Source of the DNA: Deltaproteobacteria bacterium
GTDB lineage: Bacteria > Desulfobacterota > Syntrophia > Syntrophales > UBA2210
NCBI GenBank assembly: GCA_026388515.1
Contig: JAPLJO010000114.1
Location: forward strand, 1-33,542
Reading direction: 5' to 3'
Length of the DNA: 33,542 nucleotides
Below the pieces are notes generated by a model that searched no databases, was not told the origin of the DNA, and saw only the letters and a list, made by a program, of their open reading frames with translations. Shown piece by piece: positions 10,865-33,542 of the stretch. The first letter of the stretch is position 1; each line of letters starts with the position of its first letter. The translations under genes were made by a program, and so were the position numbers.

Positions 10865-11928
10865 GCGCCATATTCAAGCTCACCACGTGGGGCGAATCAC
10901 ATGGTCCCGCCGTCGGGGCAGTGATAGACGGCTGCCCGCCGGGGATTTTCCTCACTGAGGCGGAGATCCAGGCCGAACTTGACAGGCGGCGGCCGGGCAC
11001 GCTCTCCTCCGGCTCGCCCAGAGAAGAAGAGGACACCGTGGAAATTCTCTCCGGCACATTCAAAGGTGTCACCACTGGAACGCCGATTGCACTCATGATA
11101 CGAAACCGGGACGCGAAGAGCTCCGACTATGAAGACATGAAAAACATCTTCAGGCCCGGACACGGGGATTACACCTATTTCAGGAAGTACGGCATGCGTG
11201 ATCACCGTGGCGGCGGGCGCGCGTCGGGACGCGAGACGGCGGCCCGCGTGGCGGCGGGGGCCATCGCACGGAAAGTGATTGCGGAAAGCGGCATTCACGT
11301 CATCGCCTATACGAAGGAACTAGGCGGCATTGCGGCGGAGACACTTGATCTCGCGGAGAAAGAAAAAAACCTCCTCCTCTGCCCCGATCCGAAGGCAGTA
11401 CCCCTCATGGAGGCAAAACTCAAGGAAGCGCGGGAAAAAGGCGACACGCTGGGGGGCATCGTGGAGATTGTGGTGACGGGATGCCCGGCGGGACTGGGGG
11501 AACCTGTTTTTGATAAGATGGATGCGGATTTTGCAAAAGCCCTCATGAGCATCGGCACCGTCAAGGGAGTTGAAATCGGCGCCGGTTTTGATGCCTCGCG
11601 CATGACGGGCTCCACATGCAACGATCCCCTCACCTCCGAGGGGTTTCTCACCAACAACGCGGGCGGAATACTTGCAGGCATCACGAACGGCGCGGACATT
11701 ATCCTGCGTGCCGCCTGCAAACCGATACCATCCATCTCGCTGCCGCAGCAGACCATGGACACCGAGGGAAACCCTGCCACCATCAGCATTTCAGGCCGGC
11801 ACGACATATGCGTCATTCCACGCATCATCCCCGTCTGCGAGGCAATGGTGTGCCTGGTACTCGCAGATCATCTCCTTCGCCAGCGGGCACTTAATAAAAA
11901 TATTGACAGCAGCGAAAAACCCTGTTAG
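10846..11928 (+). CDS. aroC: Chorismate synthase
   Basis: This FMN-dependent enzyme makes chorismate from EPSP, the last common step. The ORF track starts at 10840 (MPMSGNT), but GAGGGA at 10834-10839 is correctly spaced for the ATG at 10846, giving MSGNTIGAIFKLTTWGESHG, the usual N-terminus (360 aa). Other signatures are GCPPG, RRRPG, MRDHRGGGRASGRETAARVAAG and RHDICVIPRIIPVCEAMV. It is the last gene before the trp leader. A perfect -35 hexamer lies in its final codons and its stop codon overlaps the candidate -10 of the internal trp promoter. Confidence 0.96.
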   Translation: MSGNTIGAIFKLTTWGESHGPAVGAVIDGCPPGIFLTEAEIQAELDRRRPGTLSSGSPREEEDTVEILSGTFKGVTTGTPIALMIRNRDAKSSDYEDMKNIFRPGHGDYTYFRKYGMRDHRGGGRASGRETAARVAAGAIARKVIAESGIHVIAYTKELGGIAAETLDLAEKEKNLLLCPDPKAVPLMEAKLKEAREKGDTLGGIVEIVVTGCPAGLGEPVFDKMDADFAKALMSIGTVKGVEIGAGFDASRMTGSTCNDPLTSEGFLTNNAGGILAGITNGADIILRAACKPIPSISLPQQTMDTEGNPATISISGRHDICVIPRIIPVCEAMVCLVLADHLLRQRALNKNIDSSEKPC

Positions 11929-11931
11929 TCG
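11903..11931 (+). promoter_or_regulatory. Candidate internal promoter for the trp segment
   Basis: A perfect TTGACA (11903-11908) lies in the end of aroC, followed after 17 bp by TAGTCG (11926-11931), which is a weak -10. Initiation would fall about 25 bases before the trp leader ATG, the expected geometry. The -35 and position are good; the -10 is poor. Confidence 0.42.
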
Positions 11932-11961
11932 GGTGCAGCATACAGCAACGGGAACGTCATA

Positions 11962-12036
11962 ATGATTTCACAATTCAGCATAAAGAATAACTGGTGGTGG
12001 TATCCGGACATACTGAAGGGGTTCGTCCACCGCTGA
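11962..12036 (+). CDS. trpL: Tryptophan leader peptide, three tandem Trp codons
   Basis: A 24-codon ORF not in the ORF track, between aroC and trpE. Codons 11-13 are TGG TGG TGG, followed by Tyr. Given the rarity of Trp codons, three in a row directly upstream of trpE and two strong hairpins identify a trp attenuator leader. The ribosome site is weak (CGGGAA). The Trp codons (GGTGGTGG) can also pair with CCACC at 12026-12030 near the stop, the usual first hairpin of such leaders. Ribosome stalling on uncharged tRNA-Trp would prevent this pairing. Confidence 0.9.
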   Translation: MISQFSIKNNWWWYPDILKGFVHR

Positions 12037-12054
12037 TCTTTACCGTCAATGCAT

Positions 12055-12153
12055 AAAAGGCCGTGGGGAATCTCCTGAATCCCCACGGCCTTTTATATTT
12101 GTACCATCATAGGGATTAACATGAAAAGGCCGTGAGTCATCACGGCCTTTTTT
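12055..12153 (+). promoter_or_regulatory. trp attenuator with two competing hairpins
   Basis: Hairpin 1 pairs AAAAGGCCGTGGGGA (12055-12069) with its perfect complement at 12080-12094 and is followed by ATATTT. Hairpin 2 pairs AAAAGGCCGTGA (12124-12135) with TCACGGCCTTTT (12140-12151), followed by more T. The arms are shared: CACGGCCTTTT of hairpin 1 is exactly complementary to AAAAGGCCGTG of hairpin 2 (11 bp), so a central antiterminator can replace both. The trpE ribosome site begins about 8 bases after hairpin 2. Both hairpins have T-rich tails, so this may be a double terminator. Confidence 0.85.
12124..12153 (+). terminator. trp attenuator terminator
   Basis: A 12-bp stem with a 4-nt loop (GTCA) ending in six T, placed immediately before the trpE ribosome site. 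In the attenuator model it forms when Trp-tRNA is plentiful. Confidence 0.82.
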
Positions 12154-12171
12154 ATTGGCGAAAGGAGCACT

Positions 12172-13650
12172 ATGTACTACCCGTCACTCAATGAATTTAA
12201 AACTCTTGCCACGCCGGGACGCATGGTTCCCGTCTTCAGGGAAATCCTCGCCGACATGGAGACACCCGTCTCGGCCTTTCAGAAACTCGCAGGAAAACAA
12301 TATGCCTTTCTCCTCGAAAGCGTGGAAGGCGGGGAGAAATGGGGCCGCTATACATTTCTCGGCGCGGACCCGAGAATGGTCCTCACGGTGCGGGGAACGA
12401 AGGTGCTCATACGGGAACGGGGCAGGACCCGATCGTACGACCACGACGGGCAGCCGCTCGCGTTCCTGAAAGAAATCATCGAGCGGCACACTCCTGTCCA
12501 GGTGTCCGGACTTCCCCGGTTCTACGGCGGCGCCGTCGGATATTTCGGTTACGATATGGTGAGATATTTCGAGCGGCTTCCCGCCCATGCGACAGGCTCG
12601 CCGGTGACCGATGACGCAGTATTTCTCGTTACCGACACACTCATCATCTTCGATAACGTGCGACACACCATCAAGGTGGTCGCATGTGCATTTGTAAATG
12701 ACGGTGACGATACGGAGAGCCTGTACCATGATGCCACCCGGAGCATCGACGGCATGGCACGTCTTCTCATGCGTCGGAAGGCCATCGCGGGACGCCGTGA
12801 GGAGACTCCGAGGCTCCCGTCTTTTACGGCCAATATGTCCCGCTGGGAATATACCAATATCGTCGCACAGGCAAAAGAGTACATTGCCGCCGGCGATATC
12901 ATCCAGGTGGTGCTTTCCCAGCGTTTCACGGGAACATCCCCCGCGCCTGCGCTCGATCTCTACCGTGCGCTCCGCTTCATCAATCCATCGCCCTACATGT
13001 TCTTTCTGAAACTGGGCCGCCTCACCCTCATCGGCTCGTCACCGGAGGTCATGGTGCGGCTCGAAGAGGGAGTTGTTGAGTTGAGACCCATTGCCGGCAC
13101 ACGACGACGCGGCGGGAGCGAACAGGAAGACAGGAAACTCGCCTGCGACCTTCTGCAGGACCCCAAGGAACGGGCCGAGCACGTCATGCTCGTCGATCTG
13201 GGAAGAAACGATCTGGGAAGAATAGCCCGCACCGGCTCCGTGCAGGTAACGCAACTCATGGCAGTGGAGCGCTACTCCCACGTGATGCATCTCGTCTCCA
13301 CCATCAGGGCGGAACTCGCCGCCGGGAAGGACTTCACCGATGTCATCAGGGCAACATTCCCGGCAGGCACGCTCTCGGGAGCGCCCAAGATCAGGGCCAT
13401 GGAAATCATCGACGAGCTGGAGCCGTCCGGGAGGGGGCCCTACGGCGGCGCCGTGGGATACATCGGATATTCGGGCAACATGGATCTGTGCATCACCATA
13501 AGAACCATGGTGCTCGAACGCGGCATCATACACATCCAGAGCGGGGCGGGCATCGTCGCCGACTCCGATCCCGACTCGGAGTACGAAGAAACGAAGAGCA
13601 AGGCACAGGGACTCATACAGGCCGTCCAGATGGCGGCATCAGGCCTGTAA
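12172..13650 (+). CDS. trpE: Anthranilate synthase component I
   Basis: A 492-aa enzyme that converts chorismate and ammonia (from TrpG) to anthranilate, the first step of the Trp branch. The N-terminal domain has FLLESVEGGEKWGRYTFLG (46-64), containing the LLES motif linked to Trp feedback inhibition. The chorismate-binding domain carries LPRFYGGAVGYFGYD, IIQVVLSQRF, SPYMFFL, RPIAGTRRRG, DLGRNDLGRIA, FPAGTLSGAPKIRAMEII and GPYGGAVGYIGYSGNMDLCI. AAAGGAG precedes the ATG. It is the first structural gene after the trp attenuator. trpG follows after 25 bp. Confidence 0.97.
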   Translation: MYYPSLNEFKTLATPGRMVPVFREILADMETPVSAFQKLAGKQYAFLLESVEGGEKWGRYTFLGADPRMVLTVRGTKVLIRERGRTRSYDHDGQPLAFLKEIIERHTPVQVSGLPRFYGGAVGYFGYDMVRYFERLPAHATGSPVTDDAVFLVTDTLIIFDNVRHTIKVVACAFVNDGDDTESLYHDATRSIDGMARLLMRRKAIAGRREETPRLPSFTANMSRWEYTNIVAQAKEYIAAGDIIQVVLSQRFTGTSPAPALDLYRALRFINPSPYMFFLKLGRLTLIGSSPEVMVRLEEGVVELRPIAGTRRRGGSEQEDRKLACDLLQDPKERAEHVMLVDLGRNDLGRIARTGSVQVTQLMAVERYSHVMHLVSTIRAELAAGKDFTDVIRATFPAGTLSGAPKIRAMEIIDELEPSGRGPYGGAVGYIGYSGNMDLCITIRTMVLERGIIHIQSGAGIVADSDPDSEYEETKSKAQGLIQAVQMAASGL

Positions 13651-13675
13651 TACTACCTACAGGGAGAAGATTCAC

Positions 13676-14260
13676 ATGATTCTCATGATAGACAATTACG
13701 ATTCCTTCACCTTCAACCTTGTCCAGTACATTGAACAACTCGGAAGGGAAGTCACGGTGGAACGGAACGACACCATTACCACTGACGACATCGAATCGAT
13801 GCAGCCGGAGGCAATCGTCATTTCTCCGGGTCCCGGCGGTCCCGCCGGCGCAGGCATTACCGTCGATGTAATCAGGCGTTTTTACGAACAGACCCCCATT
13901 ATGGGAATATGCCTCGGCCACCAGGCCATCGGATACAGTTTCGGCGCCGAAGTAGTCCGGGCAGGCTCCCTCATGCACGGGAAAACGTCGGAAATCCTCA
14001 ACGACGGGAGAACCATCTTCAAGGGACTGCCCTCACCTTTTGTTGCAGGCCGCTACCATTCTCTTCTTCTTAAAAGGGATACCATACCGGATTGCCTCGA
14101 AATCAGCGCCGAGACCGGCGAGGGTGAAGTCATGGGGGTCAGGCACCGCCGTTATCCCGTCGAGGGAATCCAGTTTCATCCCGAATCGATACTGACGCCA
14201 AACGGAAAGCGCATCATCAGGAATTTTCTGGAAATCGCCGATCTCTATCGTCATTCATGA
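13676..14260 (+). CDS. trpG: Anthranilate synthase component II (glutamine amidotransferase)
   Basis: A 194-aa class I glutaminase that releases ammonia from glutamine for TrpE. The catalytic triad is visible: GICLGHQ with C79, and GIQFHPESI with H168 and E170. [12 protein letters not shown] (49-60) forms the oxyanion region. It is a free subunit here, not fused to trpD or trpE. It could also serve para-aminobenzoate synthesis, since these subunits are sometimes shared and no pab genes are in the window. A GGGAGA ribosome site precedes the ATG. Confidence 0.95.
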
Positions 14261-14277
14261 ATGAAAGGAGTGTCACC

Positions 14278-15288
14278 ATGATCAGGGAAGCCATCGAAAA
14301 GTTCGTGCAACGCATCAACCTCACGGAACAGGAAATGATACGCGTCATGGAGGAAATCATGACGGGAGAGGCGACATCGTCGCAGATTGCCGCGTTCATC
14401 ACCGCGCTCCGAATGAAGGGGGAAACAGTGGACGAGGTCACGGGGGCGGCGCGTGTCATGCGCCGGAAAGCAGTCCGGATCGACGCCCGCTCATCCGTCG
14501 TGGTGGATACCTGCGGTACCGGCGGCGACGGCATGCACACCTTCAATATCTCCACCACCACCGCCTTTGTCGTGGCCGCGGCGGGCATCACCGTCGCCAA
14601 GCACGGGAACCGCGCCGTGTCGAGTGGTTGCGGGAGCGCCGATGTGCTCGAGGCACTCGGCGTGAATATCGACGCACCGCCGGAAGTCGTCGAGGAATGC
14701 GTGCAGACCGCCGGCATCGGATTTCTCTTCGCACCCCGCCTTCACGGCGCCATGAAGTACGCCGTCACACCCCGGAAAGAAATCGGCATCAGGACCATAT
14801 TCAACATGCTGGGGCCTCTCACCAACCCGGCGGGCGCCACGTCACAGCTTCTCGGCGTCTACGACGCGACACTCACCGAGGCATTCGCCGGTGTCCTGAA
14901 GAATCTCGGCACGCGCCGGGCCTTTGTCGTGCACGGTTTTGACGGCCTCGACGAAGCGACCGTCACGGCGGAGACGCGCGTCTCGGAACTGAAAGACGGC
15001 ATTATCAGCACCTATAACATCGACCCGGTACGTTTCTTCGGCGACCGCTGCCACATCGACGATTTAAGAGGCGGCGACGCCTCGGTGAACGCCGAGATTC
15101 TCACGCGTGTGCTTGCCGGACACGACGGGGCATGCAGAAAAGTCGTGCTTCTCAACGCCGCGCTCGCCATCATGGCGGCGGAGAAAACCGGCACCATGGA
15201 GGAAGGCCTCGCCATTGCGGGAGAATGCATCGAAAGCGGTGCCGCTCTTAAGAAGCTGAAGGTGCTGATAGACATGAGTAACGGATGA
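14278..15288 (+). CDS. trpD: Anthranilate phosphoribosyltransferase
   Basis: This enzyme joins anthranilate to PRPP. The ORF track starts at 14257 overlapping trpG, but the ATG at 14278 has AAAGGAG seven bases upstream and gives [20 protein letters not shown], the usual N-terminus (336 aa). PRPP and substrate motifs are [17 protein letters not shown] (77-93), [19 protein letters not shown] (107-125), [13 protein letters not shown], and [14 protein letters not shown]. Length is normal. Confidence 0.96.
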
Positions 15289-15297
15289 AAATACACC

Positions 15298-16086
15298 ATG
15301 ATACTGGATCGTATACTTACACATAAAAAGAACGAGGTGGAAGAACTGAAGCGTTCCACAGGACGTGCGTCTCTTGAACGGGCCGTCCGGGATCTTCCCC
15401 CAACGCGAGATTTCGCCGTAGCGCTCCGAAAGCGCGAGTGTGCCGTCATTGCTGAGATCAAGAGTCGTTCCCCATCGGCGGGCACCATCCTTGACAACTT
15501 CGATCACCGGACCATCGCCGCGATCTACGAATCACACGGCGCCGCCGCCATATCGGTCATCACGGACAGGCATTTTTTCGGCGGTGACCGCTCCTTTCTT
15601 GCCGATATACGAAGCACCGTCTCACTGCCCCTGCTCCGCAAGGATTTCATCATCGATGACTGCCAGATCATAGAGACGCGTGCACTCGGAGCCGATGCCG
15701 TGCTGCTCATCGCGATGATACTTGATGCACGCACGCTTCGAAGCTTCATCATGCGTGCGGAGTCGCTTGGAATGACGCCGCTCGTTGAAGTGCATTCCAA
15801 TGAGGACGTAAAGAGAGCGCTCGCTGCCGGCGCCCGTGTGATAGGCATCAATAACCGTGACCTGCAAACCTTCAAAACCGATATCACGGTAAGCGCGAAC
15901 CTCGTGCCTTTCATACCGGAAGATATTCTTGTGGTGAGTGAAAGCGGGATTCGCACACGAAATGACATCGACACGCTCATGGCAGTGGGTATCCGGGCAT
16001 TTCTCGTGGGCGAGGCACTTATGAAGGCTGCTGATAGAGGCGGGACGCTCCGCACGCTCCTCGGAAGAGACGACTACAATGCCTGA
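15298..16086 (+). CDS. trpC: Indole-3-glycerol phosphate synthase
   Basis: A 262-aa TIM-barrel enzyme closing the indole ring. Motifs are AEIKSRSPSAG (52-62, with catalytic E53 and K55), LLRKDFIIDDCQI, GADAVLLI, LVEVHSNED, IGINNRDLQTF and VVSESGIRT. It is separate from trpF, unlike the fused TrpCF of enterobacteria. It starts 9 bp after trpD without a strong ribosome site and overlaps trpF by 8 bp. Confidence 0.96.
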   Translation: MILDRILTHKKNEVEELKRSTGRASLERAVRDLPPTRDFAVALRKRECAVIAEIKSRSPSAGTILDNFDHRTIAAIYESHGAAAISVITDRHFFGGDRSFLADIRSTVSLPLLRKDFIIDDCQIIETRALGADAVLLIAMILDARTLRSFIMRAESLGMTPLVEVHSNEDVKRALAAGARVIGINNRDLQTFKTDITVSANLVPFIPEDILVVSESGIRTRNDIDTLMAVGIRAFLVGEALMKAADRGGTLRTLLGRDDYNA

Positions 16087-16759
16087 AGTAAAAATATGCG
16101 GAATCACCAGGATTGAAGATGCCCTCGCCGCTGTGGAATGCGGCGCCGATGCCCTGGGTTTCGTCTTTTACCGCAAGAGCCCCCGGTGTATTCATCCCGA
16201 AGCCGCCAGGCGCATCATAGATGCTCTACCCCGCACCGTTTCCTCAGTAGGGGTGTTCGTCAACGAAGACATAGGGATCGTTACCAGCACGATGGAGTTC
16301 TGCGGGCTTTCCATGATTCAGCTTCACGGAAATGAATCGCCGGATTATTCGAGGATGTTTCCTCTCTCGAGGATAATCAAGGCTTTTTCACCGTCTTCCG
16401 AAGAAGATCTTGATGCCGCCCTTCGCTATCCATGCCGTGCCGTACTCATCGACGCCAGTGTCCCGGGACAATACGGCGGCACCGGGAAAAGGGCCGACTG
16501 GGAACTCGCGGCGAGACTGCGGGAAGCGCGCCCCCTTATAATCTCCGGCGGGCTCTCTTCAGAGAACATCATCGAGGCGATCCGGGTACTATCGCCTGAC
16601 GCGGTGGACGCAAGCAGCGGTGTCGAGATCACACCCGGCCTGAAAGATATCGATAGAATGGAGACATTCATTAAAGCCGTTCGAACCGCCGAGGAGTCCG
16701 GTACTGTTCGGCGGCACACAATTTTCACCATCACTGCATCCGGAGAGACACAACAATGA
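16079..16759 (+). CDS. trpF: Phosphoribosylanthranilate isomerase
   Basis: A 226-aa TIM-barrel isomerase. Motifs are VKICGITR (4-11, with catalytic C7), [34 protein letters not shown] (catalytic Asp), [19 protein letters not shown] and DASSGVE. The last 20 or so residues extend beyond the usual end. It overlaps trpC by 8 bp and trpB by ATGA. Confidence 0.95.
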
Positions 16760-17955
16760 AAAAAAGACTGCCTGATAAAAAAGGACATTTCGGGATTTTC
16801 GGAGGACGGTACGTTGCGGAAACACTCATTCCGGCCCTCGTGGAGCTGGAGGCATCATATAAGAGTGCGAAAAAAGACCGGGCATTCACGCGGGAGCTGG
16901 CCCATTATTCCCGCGATTATGCGGGGCGAGAGACACCTTTGTACTTCGCGTCACGCATGACGAAGGCGCTTGGCGGCGCGAGAATCTACCTGAAGCGGGA
17001 AGACCTCTGCCACACGGGCTCCCACAAAATTAACAATACCCTCGGCCAGGCGCTCCTGGCACGACGCATGGGGAAAAACCGCGTGATCGCCGAGACGGGC
17101 GCCGGCCAGCACGGTGTCGCCACCGCCACCGTCGCGGCCCTTTTCGGCATGACCTGTCGCGTGTTCATGGGAACCGAGGATGTGGCGCGTCAGTCATCCA
17201 ACGTGCTCCGGATGCGGATGCTGGGCGCGGAAGTGGTTCCCGTGGAGAGTGGCACGAGGACCCTCAAGGACGCCATGAATGAAGCGATGCGCCACTGGGT
17301 ATCCCATGTGAGAGACACCTTTTATGTCATCGGCACGACGGCAGGTCCGCACCCCTACCCTGCCATGGTAAGAGATTTCCAGAGCGTGATCGGTCGGGAG
17401 ACGAAACGCCAGATCATGCAACAGGAAGGCAGCCTTCCCGATTTTCTTATCGCCTGTATCGGCGGCGGCAGCAACGCCATGGGGCTTTTTCATCCTTTTC
17501 TTCATTACCGCGGTGTGCATATGATCGGCGTCGAAGCGGCGGGCGCGGGAATCCATACGGGCATGCATGCAGCGAGCATCACCGCTGGGAAGTTAGGCGT
17601 CCTTCATGGCAACAAAACCTTCCTTCTCCAGGATGATGACGGGCAGATCCAGGAAACTCACTCCATCGCGGCGGGACTGGATTACCCCGGCGTCGGGCCG
17701 GAACATGCCTACCTCCATGACACGGGCCGCGCGGACTACGTCGCTGTCGATGACGATGAGGCGGTCAAGGCGGCGCTCTTCCTTTCACGACACGAGGGAA
17801 TCATCCCGGCCATGGAAAGCGCCCACGCCCTTGCCTATGTCATGAAACTGGCGCCCCGGCTTCGCAAAGACAAAATCATCATCGTCAATCTCTCGGGAAG
17901 AGGTGACAAGGACGCGGGCATTATCGCCGCGAGAATGAAGGAGCGGGTTGCATGA
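16756..17955 (+). CDS. trpB: Tryptophan synthase beta chain
   Basis: A 399-aa PLP enzyme joining indole and serine. The PLP lysine is K91 in [27 protein letters not shown] (113-125) and the phosphate-binding [13 protein letters not shown] follow. The N-terminal [16 protein letters not shown] and the C-terminal [10 protein letters not shown] are typical of the TrpB1 type that pairs with TrpA. It overlaps trpF and trpA by ATGA. Confidence 0.97.
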
Positions 17956-18755
17956 AACGGCTGGAAACGACATTCTTCAAACTTCGTGAACGGAACGAAA
18001 AAGCGCTTGTGGTGTATCTGACCGCCGGCGATCCGAACCTCACCACCACCCTTGACATACTGCGAGTGCTCTCCGAGAGCGGCGTGGATATCATCGAGGT
18101 CGGCGTTCCCTTTTCCGACCCCACGGCCGACGGGCCCGTCATCCAGGCCGCGTCACAGAGGTCTCTCCGGAACGGAACGACACTTTCCGCCGTCCTTGAT
18201 ATGATTACCTCATTCAGAAAAATCTCTGAAACCCCCGTGGTGCTCTTCGGATACTACAACCCCGTCTTCCGCTACGGCAACGCCCGCTTCGCAAGAAACG
18301 CCTCAAACGCGGGCGTGGACGGCGTTCTCATCGTTGACCTTCCGCCGGAAGAATCACAGGAACTAAGACAATATACCGACCGCGCGGGCATCGATTTCAT
18401 CTCGCTCATCGCCCCCACGACACCCACCGGGAGGATCCGGACGATTGCACGCGCCTCTTCCGGCTTCCTCTACTATATCTCCATCACGGGCATCACGGGA
18501 ACGGCAAAACCAGATTCTTCCTCGGTCAAGAAGGAGGTGAAACGGATACGGGAGGTCACCAACCTGCCCGTGGTCGTCGGCTTCGGCATATCCACCGCCG
18601 GACAGGCGGCGGATCTTTCACGGCATGCCGACGGCATCGTCATCGGAAGCGCCCTTGTCCGCCTCGTGGGCACGCATGGCACGAGCAGGAAGTTGATGCA
18701 GATCGTCGGCTCTTATGTTAAGGAAATCAAAAATTCCATGAGAATGAAGCGGTAG
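17952..18755 (+). CDS. trpA: Tryptophan synthase alpha chain
   Basis: A 267-aa TIM-barrel partner of TrpB that cleaves indole-3-glycerol phosphate and passes indole through the tunnel. Catalytic E49 and D60 are in [73 protein letters not shown] and GIVIGSALV are all conserved. It ends 24 bp before tyrA. Confidence 0.96.
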
Positions 18756-18779
18756 CGCCGGTACGAAAGATCCACGGGG

Positions 18780-19553
18780 ATGGGTGATATGAAACACGTG
18801 ACAATCGGCATCATAGGAGGCACGGGCGGCATCGGCAGGTGGTTCGCCCGCTTTTTCGAGGAACAGGGCTTCACCGTGCATGTCGCGGGGAGAAAATCGG
18901 GAATGGACATACCGGCAATGGCAAAAGCTTGTTCCGTCGTCATCGTGAGCGTCCCCATCGGCGCGACCATCGGGGTAATTAAAAAAATCGGCCCATACAT
19001 GAAGCGCAACTCTCTTCTCATGGACCTCACCTCCCTCAAGGAAGAACCGGTAAAGGCGATGCTTGCATCCTCCCGCTCAGAGGTCACCGGGCTCCATCCT
19101 CTCTTCGGCCCTTCCGTGCGCTCCCTGAAAAATCAGAATATCGTGCTCTGCCCCGCACGCGGCAAACATTGGCTCACCTGGCTCAGAGCAATTCTCGAAA
19201 AGAAAGGTGCGCACATCGTTGAAACAACGCCTGAGGACCATGACGAGATGATGGCCGTTGTCCAGGGACTTACCCACCTCAATACCATGACGATGGGTAT
19301 CATGGTCCGTGAATCCGGTATCGACCGGGCGGGACTGGAGAAGTTCTCAACGCCCACCTTCCGGAAGAAACTCAAACTCATCGACAGGGTATTTTCCCGC
19401 CCGGGGCTCTACGCGGAAATCATCACGGGGAATCCGGCACTGCGGCCGCTGGCGCGTCGCTATGCGCACATTGCCGCACAGCTGAAAAAAGTGACGCTGC
19501 AAAAGGACAGGGATTTACTCGTCGCGCTCATCACCGGACGCCGCCGCCCGTGA
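18780..19553 (+). CDS. tyrA: Prephenate dehydrogenase
   Basis: A 257-aa single-domain TyrA that oxidises and decarboxylates prephenate to 4-hydroxyphenylpyruvate. The dinucleotide fold begins IGIIGGTGGIGRWFARF (9-25). VVIVSVPIGAT, LLMDLTSLKE, TGLHPLFGPS (H106) and EDHDEMMAVVQGLTHLNTM (H154) are the expected catalytic blocks. There is no chorismate mutase domain, so prephenate must come from the mutase half of PheA. The start could be 18780 or the ATG three codons later; both share GGGGATGGGTG upstream. No clear terminator follows: a CCGTGAG/CTCACGG hairpin at 19548-19568 overlaps the stop but has no T run. Arogenate as substrate cannot be excluded. Confidence 0.88.
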   Translation: MGDMKHVTIGIIGGTGGIGRWFARFFEEQGFTVHVAGRKSGMDIPAMAKACSVVIVSVPIGATIGVIKKIGPYMKRNSLLMDLTSLKEEPVKAMLASSRSEVTGLHPLFGPSVRSLKNQNIVLCPARGKHWLTWLRAILEKKGAHIVETTPEDHDEMMAVVQGLTHLNTMTMGIMVRESGIDRAGLEKFSTPTFRKKLKLIDRVFSRPGLYAEIITGNPALRPLARRYAHIAAQLKKVTLQKDRDLLVALITGRRRP

Positions 19554-20496: not shown

Positions 20497-22203
20497 ATGA
20501 TCATCACCGACTTGATACCAGTTTTGGTTTTGCCTTGTGTCCTCACAGTTCTGGCCATTTTCTTAGGCGAATACATGGCAAAGGTGTTTAATGGTGAACG
20601 CACTCTCCTTACGCCCCTTCTGAACTCGCCGGAGCAATTTCTTTATAAAATATTCGGTGTCAATAAAAATGATGAGATGTCATGGAAGACCTACTCATGG
20701 GCATTTATTGTATTCAATATTATTGGTATTGTGGCGCTTTTTCTTCTTCAAATATTGCAGGGGTTTCTTCCATTTAATCCCCAGAAGTTAGGGCCTGTTC
20801 ACTGGGATATTGCGCTGAATACTGCGATATCGTTTGTGACTAATACAAACTGGCAGGCGTACAGCGGTGAGCAGACCATGAGTTATTTGACCCAGATGAT
20901 GGGGCTTACCGTACAGAATTTTCTTTCCGCTGCTGTTGGAATTGCTCCTGCCATTGCACTCATCAGGGGATTTGCACGTAAAGAAACTTCTACCTTAGGC
21001 AATTTCTGGGTCGATCTCACACGCTCCATTATATATATTCTGTTGCCGCTGACGCTCATCTGGTCCCTTGTCTTTGTTTCACAGGGTGTCGTTCAAACGC
21101 TTCATCCTCAAATAGATGCCCTGACTCTTGAAGGACAGAAGCAAATTATATCAGTGGGGCCTGTTGCATCACAGGAAGCTATCAAACAACTTGGCACTAA
21201 TGGTGGCGGTTTTTTCAACGCCAACTCATCGCATCCTTTTGAAAATCCCACTCCTCTCACGGATTTTATGGCTGTGCTGGGACTTCTTTTAATTCCTGCC
21301 GCATTGCCGTTTACTTTCGGAGCTATGTTGAAAAATCGCAGACAGGGCTGGGCCATATACGCTTCCATGTTGATGCTCTTCATAATAGGTGTGGGTCTTA
21401 TAATCGGAACGGAGGTGCAGGGAAATCCACTCCTGGAAAAAATAGGCGTCATGGGCGGTGTAAACATGGAAGGGAAAGAAGTGCGATGCGGCATTATCAA
21501 TTCCGTATTATTTGCACAATCGACAACTGCAACTTCGTGCGGAGCCGTCAACAGTATGCATGACAGTCTCATGCCCCTCAGCGGACTGATACTGATTTTT
21601 AATATTGCGATAGGCGAGGTAATCTTCGGAGGCGTCGGCACCGGACTGATCAGCATGCTGGCCTACGCGGTACTTACCATGTTCATCGCAGGCCTGATGA
21701 TTGGAAGGACACCAGAATTCATCGGGAAAAAACTCGAATCGTTCGAGATGGTGATGTCCATCATCATTATTCTGTCCCCGGCGTTACTGCTTCTCGTGTT
21801 GTCAAGTATCGCAATCTCAACACAGGCCGGACTTAGCAGTCTCAATAATATGGGATCTCATGGACTTTCAGAGATACTGTATGCGTATGCGTCGACAGCC
21901 GGCAATAACGGTTCTGCCTTTGGTGGATTAAATGCCGGCACGCTGTTCTACACTCTTACCACCTCCCTCGCCATGCTGGTGGGAAGATTTTCCACAGTCA
22001 TTCCGGCGCTCGCCATTGCAGGATTCCTCGCGACGAAGAAAATAGTTCCCGCTGGCATTGCTACTTTTCCCACGACGGGCGTACTCTTTATCGTGATGCT
22101 GGTGAGTGTGGTTGTCATTGTCGGTGCATTAACTTTCTTTCCTGTATTAACACTAGGACCCTTTATCGAACACCTTCAGATCTTTGCGGGGAAGGCGTTC
22201 TGA
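20497..22203 (+). CDS. kdpA: Potassium-transporting ATPase subunit A
   Basis: A 568-aa inner-membrane channel subunit that binds and translocates K+ in the high-affinity KdpFABC pump. The four pore loops are visible: TNTNWQAYSGE (115-125), GTNGGGFFNANSSHPFENPTPL, TATSCGAVNSM and AGNNGSAFGGLN. About ten hydrophobic helices surround them. Length is normal. AGAGG precedes the ATG. No kdpF-like small ORF was seen upstream; that peptide is often unannotated or absent. kdpB follows after 9 bp. Confidence 0.96.
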   Translation: MIITDLIPVLVLPCVLTVLAIFLGEYMAKVFNGERTLLTPLLNSPEQFLYKIFGVNKNDEMSWKTYSWAFIVFNIIGIVALFLLQILQGFLPFNPQKLGPVHWDIALNTAISFVTNTNWQAYSGEQTMSYLTQMMGLTVQNFLSAAVGIAPAIALIRGFARKETSTLGNFWVDLTRSIIYILLPLTLIWSLVFVSQGVVQTLHPQIDALTLEGQKQIISVGPVASQEAIKQLGTNGGGFFNANSSHPFENPTPLTDFMAVLGLLLIPAALPFTFGAMLKNRRQGWAIYASMLMLFIIGVGLIIGTEVQGNPLLEKIGVMGGVNMEGKEVRCGIINSVLFAQSTTATSCGAVNSMHDSLMPLSGLILIFNIAIGEVIFGGVGTGLISMLAYAVLTMFIAGLMIGRTPEFIGKKLESFEMVMSIIIILSPALLLLVLSSIAISTQAGLSSLNNMGSHGLSEILYAYASTAGNNGSAFGGLNAGTLFYTLTTSLAMLVGRFSTVIPALAIAGFLATKKIVPAGIATFPTTGVLFIVMLVSVVVIVGALTFFPVLTLGPFIEHLQIFAGKAF

Positions 22204-22212
22204 GACAAGAGT

Positions 22213-24249
22213 ATGAAGGCACAAAAACCGGGAATATGGCAATCAGGACTCATTTTGGAGGCTATGAAGGATTCGGTGATCAAACTGAATCCCGTGTCCA
22301 TGATGAAAAATCCCGTTATGGGTATCGTAGAAATTGTAACGCTCATAACCTCTTTGATTGTGCTGGGGGATCTCTATTCAGGGAAGAGCTTTTCATATGA
22401 TGGCCAGATAACGTGCTGGCTGTGGTTTACGATCATATTTGCAAATTTTGCAGAGGCCCTCGCAGAGGGTCAGGGCAGAGCGCAGGCAGAGTCTCTGAAA
22501 AAGAACCGCAGTGAAGCGTTTGCGAAGAAGTTACATGCCGATGGTAGCAGTGAAAGAATCCCGGCGCTACAGCTGCGTAAAGGAGATATTGTTATTGTCG
22601 AGGACGGAGACCCTGTGCCGGGGGATGGTGATGTGGTGGAAGGTGCGGCGCTCATCGACGAATCGGCTATTACTGGTGAATCAGCACCTGTGATCAGAGA
22701 AGCGGGGGGTGACCGTTGCGGTGTGACCGGAGGGACCCGGGTTCTTTCGGGCACAATAAAAGTTAAAATTACGACCAATCCAGGAGAAACGTTTCTTGAC
22801 CAGATGATAGCCATGGTCGAGGGTGCGAAACGTCAGAAGACACCTAATGAAAAGGCATTGAACATTCTTCTCATTGGACTGACTGTGACGTTCATCGTTG
22901 TTGTCATTACATTAAAATATTTTGCAGGATACATGAATGTCATCGTGGGGATATCAACACTTATTGCATTGCTCGTGTGCCTCATGCCGACGACGATTGG
23001 GGGCCTCTTGCCAGCTATCGGTATTGCCGGGATGGATCGTTTATTACGGCATAACTTCATCGCCACGAGCGGACGTGCTGTGGAAGCGGCAGGCGATGTT
23101 GATGTGGTGCTTATGGATAAGACCGGTACTATCACTCTTGGTAACAGGGTAGCGACAGATTTTCTTCCCGCTGATGAGAGTGATAAAAAAACCCTTGTAA
23201 ATGCGGCATTACTTTCGTCTCTTGCCGATGAAACGCCCGAAGGCCGAAGTATAGTGATTCTCGCAAAAGAGCAACTTGGCGTGAGAGGACGTGACATACG
23301 TGCGCCTGAGGGCGCCATATTCTTCCCATTCAGCGCAGACAAGCGCATGAGCGGTATCAACTGGAATGGCCATAAGATCATGAAGGGTTCTTCGGCTGCT
23401 ATTCATGATTTCGTGATTTCAAATAACGGTCGGGTATCTGAAAAGATACAAAAGATAACTGCAGATGTCTCTCGTGAAGGATCAACGCCGCTCCTTGTCG
23501 CAGAAGATGATAAGGTCCTTGGTGTCATTCGATTGAAGGATGTTCTGAAAGAGGGCATCAAAGGAAGAATTTCTCAACTTGGTCAAATGGGAATAAAATC
23601 AGTTATGATTACTGGAGATAATCCATTGACGGCAGCTACCATAGCCGCTGAAGCTGGTATCGATGATTTTGTGGCCGAAGCAAAACCAGATATCAAGCTT
23701 GATCTCATCAGAAAGTACCAGTCAAAAGGACATCTTGTCGCAATGATAGGCGACGGCACTAATGACGCGCCCGCGCTGGCTCAGGCTGACGTCGCCGTTG
23801 CCATGAATGCGGGAACGCAGGCAGCACGAGAAGCGGCGAACATAGTCGATCTTGACTCCAATCCAACAAAACTCCTCGATATTGTCGAAATCGGAAAACA
23901 AATATTAATTACCCGCGGCTCGCTGACGACGTTCAGCGTAGCAAATGATGTGGCAAAATACTTTGCAATCATCCCGGCGATATTCGTGACCCAGTATCCG
24001 AACCTCAGCGTGCTCAACATCATGAATCTTTCGAGTGCCAATAGCGCGGTGTTGTCTGCGGTCATCTTCAATGCCATTATTATACCAATGTTGATTCCCC
24101 TGGCGCTCCGCGGTGTGCGATACAAGCCGGCAACTGCTTCGACGCTTCTTCGCCGAAATCTTTTGATTTATGGTCTTGGAGGGTTGGTAGTACCTTTTGC
24201 AGGGATTAAACTGATTGATCTCATCATATCATCACTAGGACTGGTGTAG
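22213..24249 (+). CDS. kdpB: Potassium-transporting ATPase subunit B (P-type ATPase)
   Basis: A 678-aa catalytic subunit of the Kdp pump. The phosphorylated Asp is D302 in [13 protein letters not shown]; the actuator has [12 protein letters not shown] (149-160), where in E. coli the Ser of TGES is an inhibitory phosphorylation site. The nucleotide domain has [11 protein letters not shown] and KGSSAAI; the hinge has [10 protein letters not shown] and [22 protein letters not shown]. The membrane part includes [11 protein letters not shown]. Length and all motifs are intact, so the pump itself looks functional. Confidence 0.97.
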
Positions 24250-24261
24250 GGGCAGTATTCA

Positions 24262-24849
24262 ATGTTACAGGTGAAGCGTGCCGTCATCGTTTTTGTCTCA
24301 TTTTCTCTCCTGTGCGGTCTCGTCTACCCACTTGGTATTACCGCAATTGCCCAGATACTCTTCCCTTATCAATCAAGAGGAAGTTTACTAATCAGTGGTA
24401 ATCAATGCATCGGTTCAGAACTTATCGGTCAAATGTTCACAAGCCCGAAGTACTTTCATGGAAGACCATCGGCAACAGATCCTGCCTATAATGCCGGTGG
24501 CTCAGCCGGGAGCAATCTCGGACCTTCCAGCGCACAGCTCCTTGAGCAAGTTAAAGAGAGAATAGCAGAGATGCGTCGTGAAAACGGATTGTCTCCCGCA
24601 ACACCAGTTCCTGCCGATATGGTTCTTGCATCGGCAAGCGGACTTGATCCCCATATCAGTATGCGGTCCGCCATGCTTCAGGTTCGCCGCGTCGCCGGTG
24701 AGAGAGGGCTGCCGGAAGCGGAGGTTGAGTTGCTTCTGAGGCACTATGTTGAAACGCCCCTTCTGCGGATGTGGGGACAGGAAAGGGTCAACGTTTTGAG
24801 ACTTAACATGGCTTTGGATACGCGGGGGAATAACCATACTATAAATTAG
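24262..24849 (+). CDS. kdpC: Potassium-transporting ATPase subunit C
   Basis: A 195-aa subunit with a single N-terminal membrane helix (about residues 7-32) and a periplasmic domain. YFHGRPSATDPAYNAGGSAGSNLGPSS and ASASGLDPHIS are the conserved family blocks. It stabilises the KdpA-KdpB complex. It follows kdpB by 12 bp and precedes the kdpD-like gene by 43 bp. Confidence 0.95.
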   Translation: MLQVKRAVIVFVSFSLLCGLVYPLGITAIAQILFPYQSRGSLLISGNQCIGSELIGQMFTSPKYFHGRPSATDPAYNAGGSAGSNLGPSSAQLLEQVKERIAEMRRENGLSPATPVPADMVLASASGLDPHISMRSAMLQVRRVAGERGLPEAEVELLLRHYVETPLLRMWGQERVNVLRLNMALDTRGNNHTIN

Positions 24850-24892
24850 GAAACGCGTTACTATCACCGGATCCTTTATTTGAAGAAGTGAA

Positions 24893-26914
24893 ATGGAATT
24901 AAAAAGACCTAGCCCTGACGCGCTCTTGAAGGAAGTGGAGCGTGAGGAGAACAATAAGGGGAGATTGAAAATATTTATCGGATACTCCCCCGGTGTCGGA
25001 AAGACCTACACCATGCTCAATGAAGCGCATGTCTTGAAGAGTCGTGGTGTGGATGTGGTGGTCGGCTTTGTAGAGACTCATAACCGCGTCGAAACGGAAA
25101 CACTGCTTACCGGGCTTGAAGTTATACCCCGACAGCAATTTGAATACAGGGGAATCACACTCGGAGAACTTGATCTTGATGCCATTCTTGCCAGGCATCC
25201 CTCAGTAGTGCTTGTTGATGAACTTGCCCACACAAACGCGCACGAAAGCAAGCATCCAAAACGATATCATGACATCGAAGAGCTGCTTAAAAGCGGCATT
25301 GATGTATACACCACGGTCAATATCCAGCACTTTGAAAGCATGAATGATGTGGTGGCAAAAATTACGGGAGTGCGCATGCAGGAAACCATTCCCGACTCGT
25401 TTCTCGATCATGCGGACGAAGTACAGGTTATCGACATTCCCTGGGAAGAGCTGTTGCAGCGATTGAAAGAGGGGAAGGTATATGTTCCCGAACAGGCGCG
25501 GCATGCCATGGATAATTTCTTTCAGCGCGGTAATTTATTTGCCCTTCGGGAACTTATGCTTAACCTTGTTGCACGCAAGGTGGACAGCGAACTTCTCAAT
25601 TACATGAGAGCACGAGCGATTCCCGGTTCATGGCCCGCGTCAGAAAGATTAGTGGTGTGTATCGCTGCGAGCCCGTATGCAAAACAGCTCATTCGAAAAG
25701 CATACACAATTGCCAAGGATACACACGCAGAATGGTATGCCGTATATGTGTCAGCGACATCACTCTTGGATCAGTCGGGGGCTGAGCAGACCTATTTAAC
25801 GGAGGCACTGAATCTGGCGGAAGAACTGGGTGCAAAAGTTATCACGCTGACGGGAACGGATATCGCCGATGAAATTCTGCGTTTTGCCCGCGAACACAAT
25901 ATTACCCATATTGTAATCGGTAAACCGCTCAGGTCGATATTTGTCGGCTTCTTTAGGGGTTCTCCTGCATCTCGTCTTCTCCATACTCAAGGCGAGTTCG
26001 AACTTCACCTCATTTCACCAACGATTGAAAAAAGAGCGGCGGAATTGAAGGTCCCCCCAAAGCAATTCACTTTTTCACTAAAAGAGTACATCCTTTCACT
26101 CGCTATCGTTGCCGCGATCACACTGGTTAATTTTTTCATCCTCCAAAGGATGCTCAATCCTACATCGCTTTTATTCATTTATCTTATTGCAACAATTGCA
26201 TGCGCACTGTTTTATGGTACAGGACCTTCTCTCTTTGCCTCCATTATAAGTATGTTGGTTTTTGATTATTTTTTCACTGTGCCTAAATTCAGTTTTTCAA
26301 TGTATATTGTTCATGATGTGATTAACGCCTCTGCATTCTTTTTTGCATCAATTGTTATTGGTCAGCTTGTAAAAACAATTCGAAGACAGCATCTGGCACT
26401 GCAGTTACGGCTCGAACGTGTTTCACTCGCTGAGGATATGAGCAGGGAATTAATGACACTTCCGCCGGCTGAGCAATTGGTAGAAGAACTGGCCAGTTGT
26501 TCAAGCGAGACGACCAACATCTTAACGCTCCTGCGCACAACGATACTCAATGACATTAGCCAGTTAATGATCAAGTATGTGGCAAGGATCATTAACGCCC
26601 CCTCGGTTGTACTTTTTCGAGCAAAAGATGGCGGACTCCAAGTATGGGCGCGAAGCAATCCAGAATTGGAGATCAGTCAGAATGAAAAGGCCGCGGCCGA
26701 ATGGACATATTCACACGGGGAGATTGCGGGTTCCGGCACGGGAACCCTTTCAGGTATCGCATATTTATTTATGCCAATCAAATCCCAAGATACAACAATT
26801 GGTGTTATGGGCATTCAGTATGATTACAAGAATCTCTTCCCTGAACAACGCCAACTGCTGGGAACAATATCCAATCTCACGTCTCTCGCGGCTTCAAAGT
26901 GGATTAAAATATGA
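24893..26914 (+). CDS. kdpD: KdpD-type sensor lacking the histidine kinase domain
   Basis: A 673-aa protein with the sensory part of KdpD. The N-terminal KdpD domain has a Walker A GYSPGVGKTYT (30-40), VLVDELAHTN, and YTTVNIQHFES. A universal-stress-like domain spans about 250-375 (VVCIAASPYAKQLIRKA, HIVIGKPLRS), a four-helix membrane block about 395-500, and a GAF-like domain to the end. Full KdpD (about 890 aa) continues into a HisKA-HATPase kinase; here the frame stops at LAASKWIKI, just where the linker to the kinase should begin. A neighbouring frame continues about a dozen codons (YDRRMKQIEMLLN) before stopping. No kinase or kdpE follows. Shortened KdpD proteins are known in some bacteria, so this may be a functional short form or a truncation. 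Confidence 0.88.
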   Translation: MELKRPSPDALLKEVEREENNKGRLKIFIGYSPGVGKTYTMLNEAHVLKSRGVDVVVGFVETHNRVETETLLTGLEVIPRQQFEYRGITLGELDLDAILARHPSVVLVDELAHTNAHESKHPKRYHDIEELLKSGIDVYTTVNIQHFESMNDVVAKITGVRMQETIPDSFLDHADEVQVIDIPWEELLQRLKEGKVYVPEQARHAMDNFFQRGNLFALRELMLNLVARKVDSELLNYMRARAIPGSWPASERLVVCIAASPYAKQLIRKAYTIAKDTHAEWYAVYVSATSLLDQSGAEQTYLTEALNLAEELGAKVITLTGTDIADEILRFAREHNITHIVIGKPLRSIFVGFFRGSPASRLLHTQGEFELHLISPTIEKRAAELKVPPKQFTFSLKEYILSLAIVAAITLVNFFILQRMLNPTSLLFIYLIATIACALFYGTGPSLFASIISMLVFDYFFTVPKFSFSMYIVHDVINASAFFFASIVIGQLVKTIRRQHLALQLRLERVSLAEDMSRELMTLPPAEQLVEELASCSSETTNILTLLRTTILNDISQLMIKYVARIINAPSVVLFRAKDGGLQVWARSNPELEISQNEKAAAEWTYSHGEIAGSGTGTLSGIAYLFMPIKSQDTTIGVMGIQYDYKNLFPEQRQLLGTISNLTSLAASKWIKI

Positions 26915-29106: not shown

Positions 29107-29859
29107 ATGCACAGCCAGAGAATAATTCCATGCCTCCAGTTAAAAGGGATGGAACTTGTAAAAACATATCAATTCAAAACACCTCAACTCATCGGTGATC
29201 CCATAAGAGCCATTCGTGTATTCAACGAAAAAAAAGTAGACGAACTGATTATTCTCGATATTCAAGCGACGATGAAACAAAGAAAGCCCAACTTGCAGCT
29301 CATCACTGATATCTTGAATGAATGTTCTATGCCAGTCATGTATGGCGGCGGCATTCACAGCCTCGATGACATAAAGAGTATAGTGGACATCGGCGTTAAT
29401 AAAGTAATCCTGAACTCCTATGCAGCCGAAAACCCTCAGGCAGTCAAGATGGCAGCAGAAGAATTCGGAAGTAACCGTATTGTGGTATCCATGGATGTAA
29501 AAAAGAATTTTTTCGGCAGATATGAAGTGTGGACACATAGCGGCACGGTGAGCACAAGAATGAGCCCCATACGATATGCTGTCGAGATGGAACATATGCT
29601 ATGTGGTGAGCTGTTCCTGAACTCAATAGACAGAGATGGAACGCGTCAGGGATACGATCTGGATTTAATCAGAGAGGTATCTGAAGCGGTATCAATACCG
29701 GTGATTGCATGTGGTGGCGCAAGTAATGTGTCTGATATCATGGAAGCGCTTGAAATGAGTGGCGCCTCGGCGATTGCCGCGGGGAGTATGTTTTTGTATG
29801 ATGAAAGACGAAGAACCATATCAATAACTTTTCCCGCCTTTCAGGAACTGCACGTTTAA
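29107..29859 (+). CDS. HisF-like cyclase (WbuZ/HisF2 type), orphan
   Basis: A 250-aa TIM barrel of the HisF family. RIIPCLQLKG, LVKTYQFKTPQLIGDP, FNEKKVDELIILDI, MYGGGIHSLDDI, VVSMDVKKNFFG, SIDRDGTRQGYDL and ACGGASNVSDI follow the paralogues used in surface-sugar amidation (WbuZ/HisF2) more closely than true HisF. HisF's catalytic Asp11 is Gln11 here (CLQLK), while the second Asp (SMDVKK) is kept. No HisH-type glutaminase or sugar amidotransferase is next to it. It lies 29 bp after the PII gene on the same strand, so may be in the amtB operon. Role unknown; it might use free ammonia. Confidence 0.8.
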   Translation: MHSQRIIPCLQLKGMELVKTYQFKTPQLIGDPIRAIRVFNEKKVDELIILDIQATMKQRKPNLQLITDILNECSMPVMYGGGIHSLDDIKSIVDIGVNKVILNSYAAENPQAVKMAAEEFGSNRIVVSMDVKKNFFGRYEVWTHSGTVSTRMSPIRYAVEMEHMLCGELFLNSIDRDGTRQGYDLDLIREVSEAVSIPVIACGGASNVSDIMEALEMSGASAIAAGSMFLYDERRRTISITFPAFQELHV

Positions 29860-31396: not shown

Positions 31397-31621
31397 TCAG
31401 AGTATTTTCCGGAGCTCATCCCGAAAGAGTTCGCAATCTCGCAGGATTTGAGCAAGGAGTCCACGCCCAATCGTCTCGCCGAGGTGTACCGGTATGACTG
31501 TGCTCCTGCCATCCGGATGGCGCAAGAAATGGTGACTGCCCTTCGTACGGATCACTTCAAAACCAAGTTTCCGAAGGGCTTTGATAAGTTGGGAACCTGT
31601 GACTGAAAGAAATCTACTCAT
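31397..31621 (-). CDS. hicA: HicA-type mRNA interferase toxin
   Basis: A 74-aa double-stranded-RNA-binding-like toxin. LIKALRKLGFEVIRTKGSHHFLRHPDG contains the family motif with the catalytic His (H30 or H31), followed by IPVHLGETIGRGLLAQILRD. HicA cleaves mRNA and stops growth when free. Its start overlaps the antitoxin gene by four bases. Order is antitoxin then toxin, the reverse of E. coli hicAB but common elsewhere. It lies outside the right att repeat. Confidence 0.93.
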   Translation of the reverse strand: MSRFLSVTGSQLIKALRKLGFEVIRTKGSHHFLRHPDGRSTVIPVHLGETIGRGLLAQILRDCELFRDELRKIL

Positions 31622-31827
31622 GAGGAGACGGCCACACGCTGAATGCCAATGAATTCGTTTGATACGGGTTCCTCAACCTCGAGACAGAGCTGTATAGCTT
31701 CTTTCACTCGTTTCATCAGCACATCAAGGGATTTAGCTTGTGTATGGCATCCTCGCAGCTCGGGGACAGAGGCAACAAAATAGCCGTCTTCATCCCTTTC
31801 TATTACCACATTGAATTCTCTGGTCAT
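31618..31827 (-). CDS. hicB: HicB-type antitoxin
   Basis: A 69-aa partial-RNase-H-fold antitoxin: FNVVIERDEDGYFVASVPELRGCHTQAKSLDVLMKRVKEAIQLCLE is the HicB core. It has no long C-terminal DNA-binding domain, so it may be the short form, with autoregulation uncertain. A GGAGG site precedes the ATG, and TATAAT on the minus strand about 25 bp upstream is a candidate -10. It is co-transcribed with hicA. Confidence 0.92.
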   Translation of the reverse strand: MTREFNVVIERDEDGYFVASVPELRGCHTQAKSLDVLMKRVKEAIQLCLEVEEPVSNEFIGIQRVAVSS

Positions 31828-31917
31828 CTTTGAAAACCTCCATCAACATTATATTGTGGGAAGTATATCATGGGGTGTGAAACATTTCATTTTTTTCTTG
31901 ATCGAACGTCAGCGTTG

Positions 31918-32005: not shown

Positions 32006-33346
32006 TTATTTAATGACGGTTGCGATTCGATCCCTGACCGGTATATTCTCGGATTGAAGTCCGGGGGATTGTCCGTGCAACTCGAATTTCAATTTGACGT
32101 GTGGCCTGAAAATCATGCAATGGGTGGATCCGCCAAAGTGGAACATTCCCAGTTGCTCGCCCTTTTTTACATGCTGCCCCTCATGGACGGTTATGTCGTT
32201 GGATGACACTTCAGCCATGCCGACAAAAATGATGCACATCAAACCGATGTCCGGATTGTCGGCCTCGATGAAGATCAATGCTCTGGACGCCACCTGCGTA
32301 ATGTAGCCCTGGGAATCATTGGGGCCCGCCGGGTCAAAACCTTCAGACAGGGCTTCAGCATAATACGAGCCGTCAATCAGGCGGGTTTTTACAATTCTTC
32401 CGCTGACAGGACTGTGCCAGCGGTGGTAGCTCAACGCGCTCAGAAAAGCCTGATACACCGTGCCGCCCGCAAACTGTCCGGCAAGGGGGTCCATCGCCAT
32501 AATATGCTGCAACGAATAAGGCTGGGCTTTGATCCAGAACATGTCCGCAAGTTTCACGTCTTTTGCTATCCTGTATGGAGCGGATTCACAGGCGTTCGCG
32601 ATAACCGCATCATCATCAGGGCGCGCCACAGGACGCCGCTCCTCCCGAATTTTTCTGGTGAAAAAATCATCCCATGAGGAAAATCCATAGTAGGGCAAAT
32701 TGGGATCGCATATAAAATCCTTCACAAATAAAGGCATCGCCGCTTTGGCGTCTCGCCCGAACCATCCTTTCTCGGGATCGTCATTTAACACATAGCGGGA
32801 GTCCGCCGAACTCAAGAATATGGCCCATTGATTCAATATTTTTTTTAACTGTCGGTTCACCTTTTCATTCAAGAAAGCCGTGGTTCCGGCAGGCGTACCC
32901 ATGGGCCAGTCAAGGATGGCATTGATAGGAAAACCAACCAGGCCGGTTTTATTGAATTCAGGTGCAATGGTCAAAATCCGGTTCATTACCTGAAGCATCT
33001 GGCGATAGTTTTTTATCTGGGGCTTCCCGGTAGGGTCCTTGCTGAAAGATTTATTGTGCGGCACTTGATCAAACATCTGATTGAACAACATATATAATTC
33101 CGGGTCTTCTTCTATTATCTTTTTGAATTCCTGAATGACAGGCAACAATGGTTCTTTTGCGGATTCCGTTCCCTCGGTCAGCTTTGCCATCCATTGATCG
33201 AAAAACAACTGATCTGACGGCAGCCATTGTCCCACGCTGTAAGGCGCAGAATTTTCAGGCGATGCGGCAACCGCTTTGTATCCGGGAAACAGGCAGATAA
33301 AAGCCAGCACCAATGAGGTAACGAAAAATAAGGTATTCCTTTTCAT
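32006..33346 (-). CDS. Exported phosphatidylserine decarboxylase-family protein, PsiD-like
   Basis: A 446-aa pyruvoyl-type decarboxylase homologue. Residues 1-28 form a signal peptide (positive start, hydrophobic core, AVAA). Residues 60-200 match the extra N-terminal domain of fungal PsiD-like enzymes (DPELYMLFNQMF, DPTGKPQI, GFPINAILDWPMGTPAG, ILNQWAIFLSS, GWFG). The C-terminal half is the decarboxylase domain: SWDDFFTRKI, LSYHRWHSPVSG with H308 and H311, and MFHFGGSTHCMIF, whose GGST has the Ser (S407) expected to become the pyruvoyl group on self-cleavage. GGAGG precedes the ATG. Relatives act on phosphatidylserine or tryptophan; the substrate here is unknown. Export to the periplasm is unusual. 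Confidence 0.85.
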   Translation of the reverse strand: MKRNTLFFVTSLVLAFICLFPGYKAVAASPENSAPYSVGQWLPSDQLFFDQWMAKLTEGTESAKEPLLPVIQEFKKIIEEDPELYMLFNQMFDQVPHNKSFSKDPTGKPQIKNYRQMLQVMNRILTIAPEFNKTGLVGFPINAILDWPMGTPAGTTAFLNEKVNRQLKKILNQWAIFLSSADSRYVLNDDPEKGWFGRDAKAAMPLFVKDFICDPNLPYYGFSSWDDFFTRKIREERRPVARPDDDAVIANACESAPYRIAKDVKLADMFWIKAQPYSLQHIMAMDPLAGQFAGGTVYQAFLSALSYHRWHSPVSGRIVKTRLIDGSYYAEALSEGFDPAGPNDSQGYITQVASRALIFIEADNPDIGLMCIIFVGMAEVSSNDITVHEGQHVKKGEQLGMFHFGGSTHCMIFRPHVKLKFELHGQSPGLQSENIPVRDRIATVIK

Positions 33347-33542
33347 GTAGCTACGCCTCCAAAAGGATTTTGCTTCAGCAAAGTATTTTCATTTTTCCGT
33401 TTTCATTATGTGTCCGAACGCTTGAGCATCACCGGTCCCGTGAGGGGCGCTTGCGAACCTTACTGGGTACGGTGGATGCTTTTGTTCGGGCTGCCTTTTT
33501 TGTAATCCTTTCCGGTTTCTTGGTGGAGACCACGGCTTGTTG

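Follow-up and report, generated by a model that had tools for sequence, protein, structure and literature searches.

Which substrate would a pyruvoyl-dependent decarboxylase act on if it is exported from the cytoplasm? Bacterial amino-acid decarboxylation is usually regarded as a cytoplasmic process that is supplied by antiporters. The question is raised by a 446-residue open reading frame in the stretch of DNA analysed here (33,542 nucleotides, in the following called the window). An earlier note had described this reading frame as combining an export signal with decarboxylase domains, an observation which our analysis confirms. The features referred to below are the following:

32006..33346, minus strand: coding sequence of 446 aa, putative exported PSDC-type pyruvoyl decarboxylase; open reading frame with ATG start
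33356..33360, minus strand: GGAGG ribosome-binding-like motif, 9 nt 5' of the decarboxylase ATG, read from the sequence
33266..33346, minus strand: predicted Sec signal peptide, residues 1 to about 26/27, with AVA/A site (sequence and comparison)
32735..33142, minus strand: PSDC domain (PF12588), residues 69-204 (Pfam, E 9e-54)
32087..32671, minus strand: pyruvoyl decarboxylase domain (PF02666, PS_Dcarbxylase), residues 226-420 (Pfam, E 1e-35)
32414..32428, minus strand: YHRWH, residues 307-311, with H308/H311 aligned to His144/His147 of E. coli Psd
32123..32134, minus strand: GGST self-cleavage motif, residues 405-408; the S407 codon (32126-32128) specifies the predicted pyruvoyl precursor

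The distance from the gene to the contig end is 196 bp, and the genes flanking it are of unrelated function; its own operon context is hence uninformative. Directly downstream, a HicA/HicB-like toxin-antitoxin pair can be recognised by eye (~31480-31830, minus strand). Likewise by eye, positions 4331-19553 hold a nearly complete shikimate/tryptophan/prephenate gene run, extending from an aroF-like gene to trpA and including a prephenate dehydrogenase-like gene. This run is located about 12 kb from the decarboxylase gene, with unrelated genes (kdp, amtB and others) in between: kdpABCD-like potassium transport genes occupy 20497-26914 and are followed by amtB- and PII-like genes up to 29077. An orphan HisF-like protein is encoded at 29107-29859, no his operon being seen around it in the window.

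Read from the sequence, the signal peptide consists of MKRN, followed by TLFFVTSLVLAFICLF and the AVA/A site. It thus represents an n/h/c-region signal with an AXA site that is retained across relatives, as judged from sequence and comparison. Residues 1-40 show 23-50% identity to close relatives, compared to 73-88% for the mature part; nevertheless, the charged start and the hydrophobic stretch are kept in every relative of the exported clade. Since the N-terminus has diverged in sequence while its hydrophobic signal character persists clade-wide, the signal peptide appears to be real, and the earlier claim of an export signal is thereby backed by the relatives. In addition, N-terminal hydropathy is bimodal over about 65 homologues, separating exported and cytoplasmic sets cleanly, and some members of the Sec clade (L009, L012, L013) carry a lipobox-like cysteine. 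Export of the window protein can therefore be regarded as well supported at the sequence level.

With regard to its catalytic part, the PsiD-type two-domain layout proposed earlier stands, as Pfam finds both the PSDC and the PS_Dcarbxylase domain. Alignment places the GG-Ser-Thr site as well as the histidine and acidic maturation residues in the window protein. Hereby, the aligned FHFGG forms the end of the solved PsiD beta chain, and the alpha chain (42 aa) of the Aspergillus oryzae (A. oryzae) enzyme aligns from S407/T408 onward, which supports the previous assignment of S407 as the cleavage serine and thus as predicted pyruvoyl precursor. An AlphaFold model of the window protein reached a mean pLDDT of 79.5 and a pTM of 0.76, with stretches of low confidence at residues 20-43, 102-107 and 330-350. 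At fold level, the model can be matched firmly to PsiD and the A. oryzae enzyme, but its pocket loop around residues 330-350 is not reliable.

The earlier note had placed its emphasis on tryptophan and PsiD. Among relatives of known structure, an arginine decarboxylase from A. oryzae is at least as close. Its PDB entries 9jer (ligand-free) and 9jf5 (with arginine bound) are deposited under this function, and PMC12283126 lists the enzyme (Murakami et al. 2024) as a distinct pyruvoyl-dependent arginine decarboxylase. In a profile search 9jer/9jf5 is the best solved match (E 2e-112), followed by PsiD (8x4q, E 7e-101) and canonical Psd (E 4e-12). A single-sequence search returned 8e-78 for 9jer and 8e-75 for PsiD. 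In an alignment, the identities to the A. oryzae enzyme and to PsiD amount to 45% (326 columns) and 42% (351 columns), respectively. Foldseek reverses the order, with PsiD first (E 4e-30, 39-40% identity) and the A. oryzae enzyme second (E 4e-25, prob 1.00). As PsiD is slightly ahead by structure and slightly behind by single sequence, closeness alone cannot settle the substrate. In a comparison by column, 35 conserved columns match the A. oryzae enzyme alone and 26 match PsiD alone. Ten positions (L118, N142, W225, N251, P257, W271, Y298, S303, Q346 and V380) do not vary among 61 bacterial members and carry the residue of the A. oryzae enzyme, not that of PsiD, while five invariant positions go the opposite way (G221, S224, I360, A362 and F404). 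Taken together, the column comparison favours the arginine enzyme. Moreover, the window protein and almost every bacterial relative carry GGST, whereas the motif of PsiD is reported as GGSS (PMC6121855), a form absent from the window protein. Together with the gene context of cytoplasmic relatives, which points to arginine and agmatine, this moves the emphasis away from tryptophan.

This context was tallied by us for 40 cytoplasmic loci, 20 of which, in distant branches, adjoin agmatine-pathway or basic-amino-acid/polyamine antiporter genes; the tally is descriptive, as the loci are mutually related and the flanks variable, and it does not constitute an independent statistical test. AguA (agmatine deiminase) and AguB (N-carbamoylputrescine amidase) adjoin the PSDC gene in L034, L041, L060 and L062. 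A TIGR00905-type antiporter lies beside ten loci (L026, L029, L031-L035, L037, L039, L040), a PotE-like one is present in L041, and YfcC adjoins L052. An agmatine-deiminase-like neighbour occurs in L024, L027, L038, L047, L049 and L059, often with a C69 dipeptidase. The assignments lying above the NCBI cut-offs are AguA of L041 and L060, AguB of L041 and the antiporters of L031, L026 and L041. As the AguA+AguB clusters otherwise have no assigned arginine decarboxylation step, the PSDC protein would supply it, although a published assay of such aguA/aguB-linked bacterial PSDC proteins was not found. Based on sequence and context, the PSDC family is hence most likely a pyruvoyl-dependent arginine decarboxylase. 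In a recurrent trio of genes, the PSDC decarboxylase is accompanied by a C69 dipeptidase and a divergent agmatine-deiminase-like protein (L038, 811-5852; L047, 5986-10337; L049, 2222-6750); parts of this trio recur at L024, L027, L059 and L065.

The exported loci are silent in this respect. Polyamine-pathway neighbours were seen in none of the 29 exported loci examined, some of which have short flanks, so that arginine as substrate of the exported clade rests on homology to the cytoplasmic branch. Neighbours are conserved among close relatives only, for example a DNA-3-methyladenine-glycosylase-like gene at L003, L007 and L015 (by eye). An exported enzyme would need no antiporter; yet the silent context leaves room for another substrate. 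By analogy, arginine is the probable substrate of the window enzyme.

How the exported members are distributed was followed over 65 loci returned by a pattern search of genome contigs for the family. In a tree built by a quick method without the N-terminal columns, in which PsiD, the A. oryzae enzyme and E. coli Psd are long-branched and of unsure placement, 21 members including the window protein form an exported clade (SH-aLRT 98), all 21 with Sec or lipoprotein-like signals. Outside this clade, L023 and L028 form a pair with Tat signals (SH-aLRT 100), and L069, which has a Sec signal, branches apart; judged from the sequences, the pair and this distant member would have acquired export independently. 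A phylum search added further exported members (L081, L082, L083 and, with a Tat motif, L084), while a class-level search around L010 yielded no further member. The family gene is present in the window's own genome, in none of 18 other genomes searched from the same taxonomic family, in one of 41 other genomes of the order and in seven of 395 genomes of the phylum, the own genome counted. Such a patchy distribution fits lateral transfer or frequent loss. Members of the exported clade come from Thermodesulfobacteriota, Chromatiaceae, Bacteroidales, Planctomycetota, Thermotogota and other groups. At L061 (5998-6639) an exported-clade decarboxylase is truncated, lacking its N-terminal half, and apparently represents a decayed gene. 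Directly upstream of the exported decarboxylase at L003, a protein with a Tat-like motif (569-1348; 7385-8164 in L085, the same record) reads as iron superoxide dismutase.

Several other readings of the window protein have to be weighed against an exported arginine decarboxylase. That it is an ordinary cytoplasmic or membrane-anchored enzyme, its N-terminus staying on as an anchor or resulting from a wrongly called start, would agree with the many cytoplasmic relatives without N-terminal extension. This is highly improbable in view of the GGAGG motif upstream of the ATG, the hydrophobic signals conserved in the clade despite low identity, the lipobox-like cysteine of some members and the separate members with Tat signals. 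The reading as a secreted phosphatidylserine decarboxylase acting on an outer-leaflet or outer-membrane lipid, to which the PF02666 domain and the lipoprotein-like exported members that would sit on a membrane could point, is the least probable of all. The lipid phosphate is held by Tyr137 and Ser166 in E. coli Psd, whose Y137F/S166A double mutant shows substantially reduced activity and whose His144 is essential (PMC7952604). F301, A330 and H308 of the window protein align with Tyr137, Ser166 and His144; it thus carries the same changes as the low-activity mutant at the phosphate-binding positions, which makes phosphatidylserine an unlikely substrate. Furthermore, the PSDC domain occupies the place of the lipid-binding N-terminal helices of E. 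coli Psd, and the window protein falls below the cut-off of all NCBIfam Psd models. A canonical Psd is encoded separately in the same genome (L001) next to a PssA-like gene, and E. coli Psd forms a very long branch in the tree. The protein hence stays distinct from canonical Psd, as claimed earlier, while the lipid substrate left open at that time was rejected on account of the replaced phosphate-binding residues and the separate Psd. A periplasmic L-tryptophan decarboxylase, that is a bacterial PsiD yielding tryptamine, is very unlikely as well. The first rank of PsiD in Foldseek and the trp operon on the same contig speak for it; against it stand the missing GGSS, the very long branch of the single PsiD sequence with its unsure placement, the residues N142, P257, W271, Y298 and Q346 that PsiD does not match, and the kdp, amtB and other genes separating the trp genes from the decarboxylase gene. 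In line with this, the neighbourhoods of the bacterial members show no tryptophan link.

A stronger competitor, which we nonetheless consider unlikely, is that the exported pyruvoyl enzyme decarboxylates another amino acid, be it aromatic or not, the clade having switched substrate after leaving the arginine branch. The exported genes are orphans without polyamine neighbours, and PsiD proves that the fold can accept tryptophan. Moreover, the exported clade has F374 and A330 as fixed residues in common with PsiD, whereas the AguA/AguB-linked members have A at 374 and S or L at 330; in Psd, the position aligned with A330 contacts the ligand, but alanine is found there in both fungal enzymes. On the other hand, the ten invariant positions agree with the A. 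oryzae arginine decarboxylase and not with PsiD, and many of the differences between exported and alphaproteobacterial members also occur in L060, which is itself AguA/AguB-linked.

Returning to the arginine reading, the precursor would leave the cytoplasm through Sec, and signal peptidase would cut it near residue 26/27. Sec passes unfolded protein; self-cleavage and cofactor formation of the Sec members would thus occur outside the cytoplasm, while the Tat members, according to general knowledge of both pathways, would mature ahead of export. After periplasmic folding the chain would cut itself between G406 and S407, giving a beta chain with the PSDC domain and the core and an alpha chain of roughly 40 residues on which S407 would become the pyruvoyl group. 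The latter would bind a free amino acid (most likely L-arginine) as a Schiff base through the substrate's amino group, so that CO2 and an amine (agmatine) would be released outside the cytoplasm with consumption of one proton. As the cofactor would stem from its own chain, no PLP would be needed there. We consider it reasonably probable that the window protein is such a Sec-exported, self-cleaving pyruvoyl decarboxylase, most likely converting L-arginine to agmatine outside the cytoplasm. For the wider claim, namely that a laterally spread cross-phylum clade decarboxylates an amino acid (arginine) outside the cytoplasm, with export having arisen more than once via Sec, lipoprotein-like and Tat signals and being practical thanks to the self-made cofactor, we see an even chance. 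Regarding its role, the own genome encodes PvlArgDC (PF01862), a short cytoplasmic pyruvoyl arginine decarboxylase, at G000:C11:6808-7335 with an adjoining agmatinase-family gene; an agmatine deiminase is absent from this genome. The window enzyme is thus not needed for putrescine synthesis, and our guess is that it more likely serves to consume acid or to release agmatine in the periplasm. What we infer here are self-cleavage, the periplasmic location, arginine as the substrate and this role (local acid consumption or agmatine supply).

If true, a periplasmic PLP-free enzyme would produce an amine, be it agmatine or another one, and use up acid on the spot, an unusual case of amino-acid decarboxylation outside the cytoplasm. 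Many bacterial proteins with PSDC- or PsiD-like names would then likely be arginine decarboxylases, extending to bacteria an enzyme type found in one fungus. A phrase search of a collection of open-access papers returned none describing an arginine decarboxylase that is periplasmic or secreted.

Compared to known systems, E. coli Psd and the genome's own Psd share with the window protein the pyruvoyl domain, with the serine, two histidines and an acidic residue at equivalent places, but canonical Psd has no PSDC domain, carries LGST as well as Tyr137/Ser166 and is only about 24% identical. PvlArgDC would catalyse the same proposed reaction with the same type of cofactor, yet belongs to an unrelated Pfam family. 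PsiD of Psilocybe (8x4q and the tryptamine-bound 8zia) agrees in fold and domain order at about 39-42% identity and differs in the reported GGSS and in its residues at positions N142, P257, W271, Y298 and Q346. The AguA/AguB-linked cytoplasmic proteins of Klebsiella sp. BIGb0407 (L041), Ruegeria haliotis (L034) and Endozoicomonas sp. (L060) possess all catalytic residues at 50-63% identity, but have no signal peptide, and their genes lie within arginine-to-putrescine clusters. The A. oryzae arginine decarboxylase (9jer, 9jf5, 9jfn) shares the two-part architecture, about 45% identity, the ten invariant residues and GGST-type cleavage, with a beta chain ending in GGS and an alpha chain going on with THC; it is fungal, whereas the window protein has a predicted bacterial signal peptide. 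Judged by its sequence, the latter thus looks like an exported form of this recently recognised PSDC-type pyruvoyl arginine decarboxylase.
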